From a virus, in IMG/VR virus record IMGVR_UViG_3300007734_000698, positions 1 to 44,980 of that record: DNA of 44,980 bases. The stretch is one strand, 5' to 3'. Positions within the stretch are counted from its first letter, which is position 1; every line of letters begins with the position of its first letter. The translations under genes were made by a program, and so were the position numbers. The notes beneath the pieces were generated by a model. It was given only the letters and a program-made list of their open reading frames with translations. It was not told the origin of the DNA and did no database searches. Positions 676-24,425 of this stretch are shown one piece after another.

Positions 676-2793
676 ATGAATCTGAGAGAATACCAAAAAA
701 ACGCAGTAGAGTGGGCCAAAACTAGCCACGGCCTGATTATCGCACCGGCAGGCAGCGGCAAGACATGGATTGCTGCGAGCATTATCAAGCACTATCAAAA
801 CTGCGGATCTGGATTAAGATTTGGTTGGCTTGCTCCAACCCGCGAGACATGCCAGCAAGCGCGCACATCGCTCCGTGTTGCTGGCGTACCTGATGAGATT
901 GTCGAAATCCGCTGTCCGCACGAATCGGTGGACTTCAGTAGAAAGGATGTGCTGATCGTGGACGAGTGTTTTCCGTCTTGGGTCAAAATAGGGAACAAGC
1001 CGATCAACCAAATCAAAACTGGAGACATGGTTGATTCGTACAACCATGAACTGAAGTGCGTTGAAAAACGGCGTGTTTTGGATGTTTTCAAAACACCAAT
1101 GCCAAACACGATGGTGACTGTTTGGACTGAAAACGGATCAGTCACTTGCACCCAAGGTCATCCATTCTGGAACGGATTCGAGTATGTTCCGGCCATCAGC
1201 TTGACATCAGACGATATGGTTGCCACCATTCCATCGCATGAACATGGAATGCAGAGAATGCGGAACATTTACCGAAAGAAGCGGCCACTTCTCGACAACC
1301 AGGAAGCCGGTTTGCGAGCAATGCAAAACACTTCTTCGGTTCGAGAAAAGGAGACGCGTGGAAACTCAATGTGCATGGTGCAAGACGCCAGTCACATGCA
1401 TGGGAAGGACTCCAGCTTACAAAAGTCTGGATGCACTCAAGCGTGGCCGAGTCTACTGCTCAATTCAGTGTCGGGACTTGATGGTTTCAAAAATGAGTTC
1501 GGAAAGAATGTCGGCCACGAACGAGCGAATGGGCGACAAGATTTCCAAATGGATGTCAGCCAGAAGTGTGTCCGATCAGACGAGGAGGCGTATGTCGGAA
1601 TCACTCAAAGCGATTGGACACAAACCGAAGGTTCGTGGAGGGAATGGAACAGGGCCAACATCAACTCAGCATATTCTTTCGCTCATGTGCAACCTTTTGA
1701 CGGAGTATCCGATCAAGACCGCTGGAAGCGGGATTCAGAATGTTCCGAATTGCTACAAGGTGGATCTAGCGGAACCTGCGGTAAAACTGGCGATAGAGGT
1801 GGACGGCGGTTCACACAGTTCAATCAGCAGGAAAGCTGCGGACAAAAAGAAGACCGAAACACTCAATTCACTAGGGTGGTGCGTGTTGAGATTCACAAAC
1901 AAGGAGGTGCTTCTTGGGGCCAAGCAATGCGCGGAGAAGATCATGTCTACAATTTCTCGGTTGAAGGAAATGAGAACTACTTCGCAAACGGTATCCTAGT
2001 CCATAACTGCAAACATGCGCCTGCTGCCGGATGGCGTCGCATCATCGAGTCTTGTAACGGGATTCGTTATGGGTTTGACGCCACGCCGTGGGGCGACGAT
2101 CCAGATCGGAACGAGGTTACGCGAACGCTCTTCCACAACCGCACCTACGAAATCAAGCGAAGCGACATTGGCGATTCATTGGCCGACGCATACCTCGAAA
2201 TCAGCCACGCCACGGACCTCAACATCCAGCAGAAGATCGACGACAACATCGACCGCCTGTTCCAAGCGCGACGTAAGTACATGCGAATAACCGACGAAGA
2301 ATTGAAGCGTATGTGCGCTTGGGAATCGCTCGTCGATATCGGCATCTGCCAGAACAAGGAACGCAACGACTACGCCATCCAGTACGCGATGGAGCATGGA
2401 GACATGCAGACACTCATCCTCATTCCACGCATCACGCTTGGAGAGGATTACGAACGCCGGATTCCGGGTTCTCGGCTCGTTCATTCCAAGATTTCGAAGA
2501 AGCTGCGCAAGGCGGCGATGGACGAATTCAAGAGCGGACAACTCAAAACCATGATAGCCACATCATTGGCCGACGAAGGATTGGATCTGCCCAACGTCGA
2601 TCTGCTCATCATGGTCAGCGGCGGTCGGTCGTCACAGAAAACCATCCAGCGAGCGAGTCGTGCATTGCGCAAAACAGAAACCAAGAACTGCGCGACAATT
2701 CTGGACTTCTCTGACAAGTTTCACCCCATCGGCTCGTTCCACGCAAAAAAGCGTATGACCTGCTACCGCCAACTAGGTTGCGTCTTCCAATGA
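676..2793 (+). CDS. SF2 DEAD/DEAH-type DNA helicase containing an intein
   Basis: The 705-residue precursor is a superfamily 2 helicase interrupted by an intein at residues 98-444. The host protein has a Walker A motif (APAGSGKT, residues 23-30), a Walker B/DExH box (IVDE then CKH across the splice junction), a DATPWGDD segment after the intein, and C-terminal motifs including TSLADEGLDLP and QRASRALR (motif VI). Splicing would leave a helicase of about 358 residues, a common size for phage DNA-repair or replication helicases. It is followed by SSB with an ATGA overlap. No Shine-Dalgarno is evident at ATG 676. Unspliced protein would be inactive because the intein separates Asp-Glu from Cys-Lys-His of the ATPase box. 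Confidence 0.9.
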   Translation: MNLREYQKNAVEWAKTSHGLIIAPAGSGKTWIAASIIKHYQNCGSGLRFGWLAPTRETCQQARTSLRVAGVPDEIVEIRCPHESVDFSRKDVLIVDECFPSWVKIGNKPINQIKTGDMVDSYNHELKCVEKRRVLDVFKTPMPNTMVTVWTENGSVTCTQGHPFWNGFEYVPAISLTSDDMVATIPSHEHGMQRMRNIYRKKRPLLDNQEAGLRAMQNTSSVREKETRGNSMCMVQDASHMHGKDSSLQKSGCTQAWPSLLLNSVSGLDGFKNEFGKNVGHERANGRQDFQMDVSQKCVRSDEEAYVGITQSDWTQTEGSWREWNRANINSAYSFAHVQPFDGVSDQDRWKRDSECSELLQGGSSGTCGKTGDRGGRRFTQFNQQESCGQKEDRNTQFTRVVRVEIHKQGGASWGQAMRGEDHVYNFSVEGNENYFANGILVHNCKHAPAAGWRRIIESCNGIRYGFDATPWGDDPDRNEVTRTLFHNRTYEIKRSDIGDSLADAYLEISHATDLNIQQKIDDNIDRLFQARRKYMRITDEELKRMCAWESLVDIGICQNKERNDYAIQYAMEHGDMQTLILIPRITLGEDYERRIPGSRLVHSKISKKLRKAAMDEFKSGQLKTMIATSLADEGLDLPNVDLLIMVSGGRSSQKTIQRASRALRKTETKNCATILDFSDKFHPIGSFHAKKRMTCYRQLGCVFQ
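967..2007 (+). mobile_element. Intein (347 aa) in the DExH box of the helicase
   Basis: The insertion starts at Cys98 and ends at Asn444, with Cys445 as the +1 nucleophile. Block A is CFPSWVKI. Block B contains the TxxH motif (T159, H162; VTCTQGHPFW). Block F is VYNFSVEGNENYFANG, and block G is VHN followed by Cys. These are the standard residues for protein splicing of Cys-type inteins. The linker between about residue 188 and residue 400 has no in-frame endonuclease motif and reads as low-information sequence. A homing endonuclease occupies that DNA in another frame (1238-1999). The insertion point, directly after Asp-Glu of the ATPase site, is a typical conserved-site location for inteins. 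Confidence 0.92.
1238..1999 (+). CDS. Vsr-like homing endonuclease with zinc fingers, nested out of frame in the intein
   Basis: This frame is shifted +1 relative to the helicase-intein frame and is open from 1220 to TAG 1997-1999. ATG 1238 (or 1244) gives 253 or 251 residues. Counting from ATG 1238, there are Cys pairs at residues 5/8, 26/29, 45/48 and 74/78 (zinc-ribbon-like), then a NUMOD3-like DNA-binding stretch (RRRMSESLKAIGHKPK). A Vsr/DUF559-type nuclease core follows: KVDLAEPAVKLAIEVDGGSH with D176, E187, D189 and H193, then LGWCVLRFTNKEV. Such enzymes cut intein-free alleles and drive homing. The C-terminal helix overlaps the codons of intein blocks F and G. No clear ribosome binding site is visible. 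Freestanding Vsr-like homing endonucleases are known between split-intein halves; here the intein frame is intact. Confidence 0.85.
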   Translation: MNMECRECGTFTERSGHFSTTRKPVCEQCKTLLRFEKRRRVETQCAWCKTPVTCMGRTPAYKSLDALKRGRVYCSIQCRDLMVSKMSSERMSATNERMGDKISKWMSARSVSDQTRRRMSESLKAIGHKPKVRGGNGTGPTSTQHILSLMCNLLTEYPIKTAGSGIQNVPNCYKVDLAEPAVKLAIEVDGGSHSSISRKAADKKKTETLNSLGWCVLRFTNKEVLLGAKQCAEKIMSTISRLKEMRTTSQTVS

Positions 2794-20852: not shown

Positions 20853-21469
20853 GTGGATACAAGGTGCTGAACGAACACATGGTGATTCCAGGTGGATGGA
20901 GCTATCGAGTTCCTGAAACCGGAATAGAAATCGCCGGAGGATCATGGCCGCAACTCCATGAGTTTATTCGCAACCATTACACGGCGAACGCGATTAAAAT
21001 TCCCTCCAACCTTGACACATTAATCACCGAATATGCGTGTCGTAACGGTGCCGATTGCTCTTACGACGAAGTTGAGATTCCTAAGCCAGAAGGGCGTAAA
21101 TCGCTTCAGCTCGGAGATGTCATCCGATTTAGCATGAGTCTTCTCCACGGACTCACGGTTGGCGGAGGCAAGGTTGGTCAGGCAGAAGCAAACCGGCGTG
21201 CAAGCATCTGCTCAACTTGTCCGTTCAATCGAAAGCCCCTCGGATGCACTGGTTGCAATGCTCGCGTCCTGAAGGATGCCGTTAAAACTTTTTCTCAACA
21301 CGGCAGCACTCCAGTAGACGAAAATCTGCAAAGCTGCGAGTTTTGCGGTTGCTTCATCAGGAGCATGGTTTGGTTTCCCATTGAAACCCTTCATAAATTC
21401 TCGGACGCTATAGAGAACGAAAACCTTCCGGCTCACTGCTGGAAAAAACGACCATGTACGGAAACCTAG
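20849..21469 (+). CDS. Conserved Cys-rich phage protein between terminase and portal (206 aa)
   Basis: ATG 20849 overlaps the terminase stop and has a good AAGGAG ribosome binding site. The N-terminal half (GGWSYRVPETGIEIAGGSWP) is a pattern I have seen in other phage proteins next to terminase or portal. The second half contains zinc-binding-type cysteines: CSTCP, CTGC, CEFCGC and a late C. It may be a zinc-containing packaging or assembly factor. No family with known function is recognised. Confidence 0.6.
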   Translation: MSGYKVLNEHMVIPGGWSYRVPETGIEIAGGSWPQLHEFIRNHYTANAIKIPSNLDTLITEYACRNGADCSYDEVEIPKPEGRKSLQLGDVIRFSMSLLHGLTVGGGKVGQAEANRRASICSTCPFNRKPLGCTGCNARVLKDAVKTFSQHGSTPVDENLQSCEFCGCFIRSMVWFPIETLHKFSDAIENENLPAHCWKKRPCTET

Positions 21470-23700
21470 CCCAACTGCCACTTGAAACTATCAACGAAGA
21501 CGGCAAAGCGCCTGAAACGCGCATAGCCGACGCGGCATCCGCTCGCGAAATCTTCCAGAAGCTCATTATGGCCGACGAGCTTCGTAATAGTACGCGAGCT
21601 AAGTTGCGCGGTCTGGTCGATGGAAATCCTCCGTACAATCCAGCGGAACTGCGCCGCAACAACCAAGCGTTCCGCACCAACGTCAACTTCCGCGAATCAG
21701 AAGCGTTTCTCACGTTGGCCATGTCTTCCTTCTACGACGTGTTCGCCGAGGTGCCGACGTACGCAAATGTCCGCACCGCTTACGGTAATGACATGGATAA
21801 GCGGGAGGAATGGTCAAAGATCATCACCGAAGAGTTTGATCGGCTTCAGAAGCTCGACAAGGATTTCGACTACATCATGCAGCTATCGCAGCGTGAGATG
21901 GTCCTCATTGGCGATGGTCCGCTCATCTTCGAGGACAACACCAATTGGCGCTGCAAAGCCATCATGGCGACGGACCTGCTCGTCCCCGATGGCACTAAGT
22001 CTAACGTCAGCGACTGGAAGGTGGCCTGCGTCCGCACTCGCATGGGCGTGGATGACCTGTTCGAGAAGATCCAAGATGAAGAGGCGGCAAAAGCTTCCGG
22101 TTGGGATGTTGACTATGTCCGTCAGCGTATCCGCGCTGCGATGCCCGAACCGTATCGCTCAGGTGTGCAGTACGACTGGGAGTTCTTCCAGAAGCAGCTT
22201 CGCTCGAACGACATCACGTTCAGCGCACGTTCCGAGGTGGTCTTGATGTGCCACGTTTTTTATAAAGAATTCGATGGTCAGATCAGCCATGCCATCATCG
22301 ATGAACGCGATAGCGAGAGTTTCATGTACCGTAAGCTTCGCCGGTTCAGCCGGTGGGAGCAGGTCATTCATCCGATGTACTACGACCGTGGCGACGGCGA
22401 GCATCACGGTGTAAAGGGTCTTGGCATCAAGATGCTTCAGGCGATGGAGCTGAAAAATCGTCTTCGTTGCTCGATGGTGGACAGCGCGTTTGCGCGGACT
22501 CAGATTCTGTTCCGCCCCCTGAACGCCAACGCGCTGAGTAAGACCAGCGTCGTTCAACAAGGACCGTATGCGATACTTCCTCCAGACTACGAAGTCATCC
22601 AGCAGAACATTGCTGGTGTTCTGGACGCTCCTATGGCGGTCAACGCGGATCTTGAGAATGTTCTGCAAGGCAATCTCTCTCAGTATCGCCAATCGCTCAA
22701 CAAGACTGGCAACCCGAGAACTGCCACCGAAATGCAGATTATTTCGTCGCAGCAATCGGCCATCGGTAAGACTCAGTTGAGTCGGTATTACAACCAGTTG
22801 GATTCTTTCTTTGAAGAGCGGTACAACCGTGCCTCAGATCCGAATCTCAATCCGATTACCAAATCGGACAAGGATGCCATTGAATTCCAGCGTCGATGCA
22901 AAGAGCGTGGCGTTCCGATTCAGGCGATGATGGATATCGACTACATTGAGGCGACTCGTACGGTCGGCCAAGGTTCTCAGTTCGCGAAGCAGCAGCTTCT
23001 TGGTCAGCTTCTCGCGTTGTCCGGCTCCCTTCCAGAGGGCGGCAAAATTAACCTGCTCAAGGACTATATTGCCGCACAGGTTGGCCAACAAATGGTAGAT
23101 CGTTACCTGCCCTCGCAGCTCCAATCTTCTCGCACTCAAGACCAGGCCGCCCTAGCTGTTCTGGAGCATGCGTCGCTGCGTCAGGGCAACATGCCAATCG
23201 TCACCGATACGCAGAATCAAATCATTCACATCGAGACTCATCTTGGCGCAGCGAACGAGGCTGCTGGTTCTCTTCAGAATGGCGGCAATCCCGAGGAAAT
23301 CATGCTCTTCATGCAGGGTATTGGTCAGCATGTTCAGCAGCACATCCAGCGGCTGGCAACCGATCCGTCGCGCAAGCAGCAGGTCGATGCGTACGTCCAG
23401 CAGCTCGGTATGCTCGGCGAGACTATCAAGCAGCTTGGTCAGATGCTCCAAGAGCAGCAGCAGGCAATGGCGCAGCAGCAGCAAGCTCAAGCGATTCAGC
23501 AAGGCTCCGATCCTCGTACCGCCGTAATGAACGCAGAGGTTCAGGCAAAAATCGCTCGCCAGAACGCCGAGACTATGGCCAACATCCAGCGTCAGAACAC
23601 GAAGGCGATGGCAGATTTGTCGCGCCGGAATGCGAAGACAACCGCTGATATTCAGCGAGCGAATGCAACTGCGGAATCTAACTTGTCGCGTCAGGGATGA
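21454..23700 (+). CDS. Portal protein (748 aa)
   Basis: The large size, the place after terminase and the sequence pattern of podovirus portals support this call. The N-terminal region includes SREIFQKLI-like helices (AREIFQKLIMADELRNSTRA), an NFRESEAFLTLAMSSFYDVF segment, a beta-rich wing domain, and a crown region rich in Gln. The C-terminal 190 residues are Gln-rich helices ending in four 11-residue repeats (RQNAETMANIQ, RQNTKAMADLS, RRNAKTTADIQ, RANATAESNLS), which suggest a long barrel or coiled coil inside the capsid. The start overlaps the upstream gene by 16 bases. Portal dodecamers form the DNA channel at one capsid vertex. Confidence 0.85.
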   Translation: MYGNLAQLPLETINEDGKAPETRIADAASAREIFQKLIMADELRNSTRAKLRGLVDGNPPYNPAELRRNNQAFRTNVNFRESEAFLTLAMSSFYDVFAEVPTYANVRTAYGNDMDKREEWSKIITEEFDRLQKLDKDFDYIMQLSQREMVLIGDGPLIFEDNTNWRCKAIMATDLLVPDGTKSNVSDWKVACVRTRMGVDDLFEKIQDEEAAKASGWDVDYVRQRIRAAMPEPYRSGVQYDWEFFQKQLRSNDITFSARSEVVLMCHVFYKEFDGQISHAIIDERDSESFMYRKLRRFSRWEQVIHPMYYDRGDGEHHGVKGLGIKMLQAMELKNRLRCSMVDSAFARTQILFRPLNANALSKTSVVQQGPYAILPPDYEVIQQNIAGVLDAPMAVNADLENVLQGNLSQYRQSLNKTGNPRTATEMQIISSQQSAIGKTQLSRYYNQLDSFFEERYNRASDPNLNPITKSDKDAIEFQRRCKERGVPIQAMMDIDYIEATRTVGQGSQFAKQQLLGQLLALSGSLPEGGKINLLKDYIAAQVGQQMVDRYLPSQLQSSRTQDQAALAVLEHASLRQGNMPIVTDTQNQIIHIETHLGAANEAAGSLQNGGNPEEIMLFMQGIGQHVQQHIQRLATDPSRKQQVDAYVQQLGMLGETIKQLGQMLQEQQQAMAQQQQAQAIQQGSDPRTAVMNAEVQAKIARQNAETMANIQRQNTKAMADLSRRNAKTTADIQRANATAESNLSRQG

Positions 23701-24425
23701 AAAATATACACTTCGTACACGGTCTTCACGACGACGGTTTCAACATTTGCGACAGAATCGCAATCGCTTCCGCTTGGATGAACAATCCAGACTGGAGCGT
23801 TTTTCTTTGGTGTCCCAAGGAGCCGACTGGCGAGCAGTGGGAAAAGCTGAAGGCGAAGGTTCCGGTTCGCGTGATGTTTGTTGATGATTTCAAAACTTGG
23901 AACGGAAAGGTTGTTCCCAAGTATCAGCACCGCGCCGACTTGATTCGCCATGCGGTTTTGTATGCGATGGGCGGAGTTTACGCCGACACGGACACGATTA
24001 CGCTCGCTCCTTTCCCGAAGGAATGGCTTGAGCATGACGCTGTTTTAGGGCGCGAGTTCTGCGGCGAAGGAACTATCGGACTCTGCAACGCTGTCATGTA
24101 CAGCAAGATGCACGGACAGTTTCAGTGGAAGTGGCTTCAGGAATGGCAAAAGTTTGACGGCACCGGATGGAACGAGACTTCGGTTCAATTTCCGTGGAGG
24201 CTGCATCAAGAAAATCCGGGTCTTTGCAAAGCAGTTGATTTTGAGATGCTCGGTTTCATTCACTGCGAATCTGGAAAATACTGGGAACCCAACTATTCGT
24301 TAGATGGATGTGTGGTTGCGCATTTGTGGAGGTCGTACCACACACCGAGAATGAATTCTTTAACTGAAGAAATTATAAATAAAAAAGAAAACGTCTACTG
24401 TGAACACGCTTCAAAATATCTTTGA
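23697..24425 (+). CDS. GT32-like glycosyltransferase (DXD type, 242 aa)
   Basis: The signature of the GT32/capsular polysaccharide family is present: YQHRADLIRHAVLYAMGGVY followed by the DXD motif ADTDT (D97 and D99), which holds metal and nucleotide sugar. The N terminus (IHFVHGLHDDGF) is the expected first strand. A later His/Trp pair (VVAHLWRSYH) is also family-like. It overlaps the portal stop by four bases, so it is made with the packaging proteins. It probably adds a sugar to a virion or host glycan; the acceptor is unknown. Confidence 0.7.
   Translation: MKNIHFVHGLHDDGFNICDRIAIASAWMNNPDWSVFLWCPKEPTGEQWEKLKAKVPVRVMFVDDFKTWNGKVVPKYQHRADLIRHAVLYAMGGVYADTDTITLAPFPKEWLEHDAVLGREFCGEGTIGLCNAVMYSKMHGQFQWKWLQEWQKFDGTGWNETSVQFPWRLHQENPGLCKAVDFEMLGFIHCESGKYWEPNYSLDGCVVAHLWRSYHTPRMNSLTEEIINKKENVYCEHASKYL

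Follow-up and report, generated by a model that had tools for sequence, protein, structure and literature searches.

The virus record IMGVR_UViG_3300007734_000698 of IMG/VR, whose positions 1 to 44,980 (44,980 nucleotides) constitute the window analysed here, carries an SF2 helicase gene interrupted by an intein, and a second gene, coding for a predicted homing endonuclease (HEN), lies within this intein in the +1 frame. We consider it very probable that this is a mobile intein with an overprinted HEN, the intein being spliced as protein and the enzyme being made separately. An earlier note, made from the letters of the window, had pointed to the nesting, and the coordinates which it gave for the HEN are correct (Table 1). 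The nested gene is neither a chance overlap nor the result of a frameshift error, and the layout turned out to be a widespread family trait and not a single oddity.

The intein and the nested endonuclease gene

The helicase/intein frame is open from end to end, and the host gene is not split in two open reading frames (ORFs). By its residues (C1, the block B TxxH, the C-terminal HN and the +1 Cys) and its modelled HINT fold, the insert appears to be a complete class-1-type intein. C1, T62, H65 and N347 are invariant across 56 aligned inteins, V345 and H346 are at least 90% conserved, and a +1 Cys or Ser was recognised at 114 of 117 nested loci. The folded part of the intein model matches the NpuDnaB intein (4o1r) with a Z of 19.9 and a root-mean-square deviation (rmsd) of 1.6 over 130 residues, and many other inteins as well (Z up to 19.9). 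The conserved residues and the fold suggest that the window intein would excise itself autocatalytically, with ligation of its exteins. In Pfam, the in-frame translation matches intein/HINT models only, and no nuclease match falls in the disordered linker, where the HEN domain of a canonical intein would have been expected; the linker does lack endonuclease features, as the earlier note had claimed.

Could the insert be removed as RNA, as a group I or II intron, or else stay in the protein, its intein signature being incidental? Retention is the proposed fate of the ShiLan insertion (Arsenault et al. 2025, PMC11855218), in which a phage DNA methylase hosts an HNH endonuclease in another frame and splicing domains are lacking, and introns as well as ShiLan-type inserts are known to carry HENs out of frame. 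However, the complete set of conserved splicing residues and the confident HINT fold leave this explanation highly improbable. Moreover, no Rfam match was found in 600-2900 at E up to 1, a search in which divergent introns could be missed, and the intact splicing protein makes an intron unnecessary.

The nested ORF (1220/1238-1999) is contained wholly in the open helicase/intein frame, and its stop codon, TAG at 1997-1999, arises within the intein codons CTA-GTC. By predicted fold and catalytic residues, its product would be a homing endonuclease of the Vsr/EDxHD type. Counting from ATG 1238, D176, E187, D189, H193 and D202 do not vary across 70 aligned relatives, the first four being residues that had already been singled out, with the right numbering, before these alignments. 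The nuclease-domain model resembles 3hrl (Z 12.2), I-Bth0305I (Z 11.0) and Vsr (Z 9.3), which bears out the Vsr-like core of the initial description; I-Bth0305I (PDB 3r3p) was also found by a profile search with the HEN (E 0.0024), and the Pfam DUF559 match falls at the HEN C-terminus. The N-terminal Cys modules probably bind zinc, and the second set is at least 90% conserved in the 70 relatives. The zinc-finger Cys pairs of the earlier note stand, but its NUMOD3-like region is weak: NUMOD3 is matched by only one of the 70 members (0.0018), and we rejected it as a defining domain of the HEN.

Table 1. Features of the interrupted helicase gene and of the gene nested in it (slashes mark intein borders; aa, amino acids; pLDDT, predicted local distance difference test)
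Feature	Position	Strand	Basis
SF2 (DEAD/DEAH, ResIII-type) helicase ORF, 705 aa, intein-interrupted	676-2793	+	Pfam Helicase_C 8e-14, ResIII 1e-10; PHROG DNA helicase 3e-38
Helicase exteins	676-966 and 2008-2790	+	
Insertion site, 5' side	964-969	+	Intein-free alleles read GAY GAR/GCN (DE/A)
Intein, 347 aa, in Walker B/DEAH motif II (VDE/CFPSW...LVHN/CKH)	967-2007	+	Invariant splicing residues, profile matches to PDB inteins, HINT fold
N-terminal splicing half, intein residues 1-92	967-1242	+	AlphaFold pLDDT 93-98; intein-frame substitution pattern to about 1226-1234
Intein-frame linker, residues 93-294, predicted disordered	1243-1848	+	pLDDT below 50 almost throughout; low intein-frame aa identity; HEN-frame codon pattern
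C-terminal splicing half (blocks F/G; residues 295-347)	1849-2007	+	pLDDT 94-97; dual-coding with HEN 3' end up to 1999
HEN gene, 253 aa, +1 frame relative to intein	1238-1999	+	DUF559 2e-12; AlphaFold mean pLDDT 90.4
Two four-Cys zinc-ribbon-like modules (C5, C8, C26, C29; C45, C48, C74, C78)	1250-1471	+	Scattered zinc-finger Pfam matches
Vsr/EDxHD-type PD-(D/E)xK nuclease domain, residues 133-250	1634-1987	+	Invariant residues; structural matches

Conserved dual coding

The earlier note had called for a search for similar loci. With the enzyme as query, tblastn retrieved 15 IMG/VR contigs (36-90% identity) and, at less than 60% identity throughout, 43 phage records (33-44% among the matches listed). 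The first 20 relatives examined, among them Vibrio phage CP-T1, Corynebacterium phage phi673 and Pseudomonas MR14, all have an uninterrupted helicase frame with the enzyme in +1; the five phage records that we opened all annotate the helicase only, and not the nested HEN. The final survey, which searched all three forward frames with profiles of the enzyme and of the two intein ends, was seeded with nested enzymes and took the best 80 per scan, so that its counts hold within one family and not for all inteins. It comprises 139 non-redundant contiguous inteins in which the HEN is always in +1, and two further loci, with only the C half of the intein on the contig, where the register is likewise +1. 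HEN-seeded scans of viral contigs, and one of genomes, gave no HEN in the intein frame or in +2. Other layouts were four split loci and seven free-standing HENs, and 61 genome loci had a DUF559-type nuclease only, without intein seen.

The carriers are phages of Vibrio, Corynebacterium and Pseudomonas, IMG/VR contigs, and genomes of many bacterial phyla (labelled Chloroflexi, Verrucomicrobia, Riflebacteria, Myxococcota, Campylobacterota, Bacillota, Bacteroidota, WWE3, Planctomycetota and others); the genome matches are mostly metagenome-assembled genomes, and some contigs may belong to phages or prophages. The same overprinted intein family is found in DNA polymerase III clamp-loader-type ATPases of bacterial genomes (L115, L117), where it follows a Walker B-like motif, and in SNF2-type proteins (L116, L120), the insertion sites across the family being mostly Walker B-like positions. 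Two other loci (L118, L119) are probably also clamp-loader-type carriers. One helicase (L112:1861-5649) apparently contains the overprinted intein and, upstream of it, another whose LAGLIDADG-type enzyme is in frame.

Within 117 non-redundant nested loci, a subset of the survey, the 23,518 overlapped HEN codons contain no intein-frame stop. This figure is partly built into the "contiguous" class, but no more than four of the loci with both intein ends were left outside that class. The third frame has 1,630 stops, and in five free-standing relatives there are 109 intein-frame stops in 1,021 codons, which argues, as the earlier note had done on other grounds, against a chance overlap. The HEN avoids T-ending codons before codons starting with AA, AG or GA (0.1%, vs 24.4% before harmless neighbours), because the linker must stay free of intein-frame stops; the 5 leftover cases are apparently at profile edges, and none is inside the enzyme frames used in the stop count.

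Substitutions were counted in nine window-clade representatives with gapless inteins. Before 1238, the changes at intein codon positions 1/2/3 number 44/27/89, and in 1238-1883 they number 229/82/76, the most variable position there being the HEN third position; the best switch point of the codon pattern is at about 1226-1234, adjoining ATG 1238. This comparison per codon position, which had been suggested along with the initial description, thus places the linker under HEN-frame constraint and the DNA before it under intein-frame constraint. Translated in the HEN frame, the linker DNA keeps an amino acid identity of.73-.91, vs.48-.68 in the intein frame. The last ~115 nucleotides of the overlap are constrained in both frames: 1884-1998 shows 40 changes in 115 nucleotides, vs 387 in the 646 nucleotides of 1238-1883, and both frames are there ~80% identical in amino acids. 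According to the models, about the last 150 nucleotides of the HEN gene would encode folded parts of two proteins.

Long nested ORFs can arise by chance, and the window holds such a case, which served as a control: another out-of-frame ORF, 21620-22246 (+, 208 amino acids, inside 21454-23700), stays open in just one of 78 relatives and is dominated by host third-position changes, and we rejected it as a second real nested gene. The tests separate both cases. For the HEN, we regard as negligible the explanations that the overlap arose by chance or that an error in sequencing or assembly shifted the frame of an ordinary in-frame enzyme: the +1 register is common to all 139 contiguous loci, isolate genomes included, the codon pattern, the conserved catalytic residues and the confident fold are those of a real enzyme, and the control ORF behaves in the opposite way. 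The hidden indels that the earlier note had considered were not encountered, since the same offset is present in independent assemblies and isolates (Vibrio CP-T1, Corynebacterium phi673), and the nested frame is not full of stops in homologues but open.

Expression and mobility

In the mechanism that we propose, ribosomes reading the helicase frame would produce a helicase-intein-helicase precursor, the two HINT halves of which, joined via the long disordered linker, would associate, and class-1 splicing would then excise the intein and restore the helicase. Ribosomes initiating at or near ATG 1238 of the same transcript would read the +1 frame and yield a separate enzyme of 253 amino acids, made of zinc ribbons, a helical segment and the Vsr/EDxHD nuclease. 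The predicted target of this enzyme is the conserved Walker B codons of helicase alleles that lack the intein; once these are cut, repair would copy in the whole intein, HEN included, and the Ala codon at +1 in the DEAH box would become the Cys that splicing requires. Splicing and homing activities may thus be made separately from one locus, as was first suggested in the earlier note.

How would the second frame be reached? The mode of HEN translation is the least certain step. An in-frame ATG is found near the domain boundary in 106 of 117 loci, and the window clade keeps ATG-AAC-ATG, with the selection switch just upstream; internal initiation near ATG 1238 is what these features suggest. 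Several points weigh against the mechanism as a whole. The Shine-Dalgarno signal ahead of the HEN start is weak at 1238 and, family-wide, does not exceed the control (median -4.4 vs -4.1, p 0.10). HEN translation, protein splicing and cutting of the empty site are steps that we infer. Furthermore, the survey loci are not phylogenetically independent, and more distant in-frame cousins are possible.

The weakness of the Shine-Dalgarno signal, together with a HEN frame that is open from 1205, would also suit a programmed ribosomal +1 frameshift near 1205-1238, leading to an extein-intein(N)-HEN fusion. We think such a shift unlikely. The boundary ATG and the retained ATG-AAC-ATG speak against it, as does the fact that the upstream extent of the open HEN frame differs among relatives; no obvious slippery site was seen, and the HEN ORFs of the split relatives described below have an ATG of their own.

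The HEN is part of the mobile unit: in 114 of 117 loci the intein encloses its stop codon, and the enzyme therefore travels with the element. All 80 of the 80 close relatives of the spliced helicase that were retrieved (83-92% amino acid identity) lack the intein and are contiguous at the site. The site motif, tallied in 74 intein-free helicases, is DEAK in 74/74, vs DE/C...N/C in intein carriers, and the A-to-C change in the DEAH box marks invaded alleles, presumably through co-conversion. A 2.2-kb gene of the window recurs in two of the intein-free contigs at 93% nucleotide identity. In six relatives (L003-L007, L010) the identity to the window is 0.835-0.869 for the intein vs 0.59-0.65 for the extein; the intein is far more similar than the host genes, therefore the element moves, and these sequences point to a recent horizontal transfer. 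Window positions 5000-29000 had no nucleotide match to sequenced phages.

The usual intein cycle predicts decay of the HEN once the element is fixed, and the activity of the window HEN is a prediction; the gene could then be real in the family and an inactive relic in the window, enclosed in an intein that must stay open. However, the linker identities given above favour the HEN frame, the catalytic residues are invariant, the closest relatives lack the intein and the transfer appears recent, and we hold a relic to be very unlikely, even more so than the frameshift.

Split inteins and other known systems

Canonical bifunctional inteins (e.g. PI-SceI) carry a LAGLIDADG or HNH HEN in frame, in the same polypeptide. 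The window element likewise unites a splicing domain and a homing enzyme, but its HEN is a separate overlapping gene, so that the splicing and homing coupled in one polypeptide in textbook inteins could here evolve and be expressed apart. Fractured genes, in which a Vsr-like/EDxHD HEN sits between the two parts of a split intein, are said to have been described by Dassa et al. (2009; cited in PMC12350094). The enzyme fold, the association with an intein and the HEN as an ORF of its own between splicing halves are common to these and to the window; unlike fractured genes, which have two host ORFs and splice in trans, the window intein is one intact ORF.

The fractured layout exists within the family itself. 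In four relatives (L406, L407, L411, L415) the intein halves lie in separate ORFs, the linker has many stops, the C half has a candidate ATG, and the HEN is still +1 to both halves, the same register as in the window. The insertion site of these split relatives is a few residues past DE (e.g. DEHHR/C). They form one clade among the nested forms (FastTree, with DUF559 proteins as outer group; deeper support is modest), and free-standing HEN copies are likewise scattered among nested forms in quick trees. Seven free-standing HENs (L053, L078, L087, L107, L113, L368, L397) have no detectable intein, and no Rfam-recognised intron was found around the first five.

We propose that the direction was from overprinted to split, the quick trees giving modest support for split and free forms as derived. 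Stops in the linker and a new start for the C half would yield a fractured gene with a trans-splicing intein, a conversion that could be direct because both the start and the stop of the HEN are its own and lie in the linker. Whether overprinted inteins constitute a distinct, old and widespread class, with the HEN as an overlapping gene, and a stepping stone to split inteins, is a question on which we judge the chances to be even. This route from contiguous to split inteins, the latter being widely used as tools, is testable. Moreover, the more than 100 loci provide a natural replicated system in which overlapping genes can be studied, in viral as well as cellular DNA, and they reveal a class of HENs hidden from annotation pipelines.

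I-Bth0305I is an EDxHD HEN of a phage group I intron with which the window HEN shares the catalytic fold (rmsd 2.5, 90 residues); unlike the latter it is intron-borne, and other N-terminal DNA-binding parts are expected. Phage group II introns carry CapR-like zinc + EDxHD/Vsr homing endonuclease genes (PMC12350094), in which, by their description, N-terminal Cys-pair modules also precede an EDxHD/Vsr-like nuclease, but these are carried by introns and involve no dual coding with a splicing protein. The window insert resembles ShiLan in being mobile, in staying open in the frame of its host gene, in encoding a HEN in a different frame and in lacking a clear ribosome-binding site; unlike ShiLan, it has a complete intein and a Vsr/EDxHD enzyme instead of an HNH one. 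In the literature consulted we found no description of an out-of-frame HEN in a complete intein, although works cited in PMC11855218 may hold earlier examples: for overlapping frames, that paper cites the 2025 preprint of Gosselin, Arsenault and Gogarten (10.1101/2025.01.02.630785, "non-canonical architecture") and Gorbalenya 1998 ("Non-canonical inteins"). The component parts are of known kinds, and their combination appears new, with possible precedents in those works.

Elsewhere in the window, a glycosyltransferase-like gene (Gly_transf_sug 8e-13) lies at 23697-24425 (+), downstream of the terminase region.
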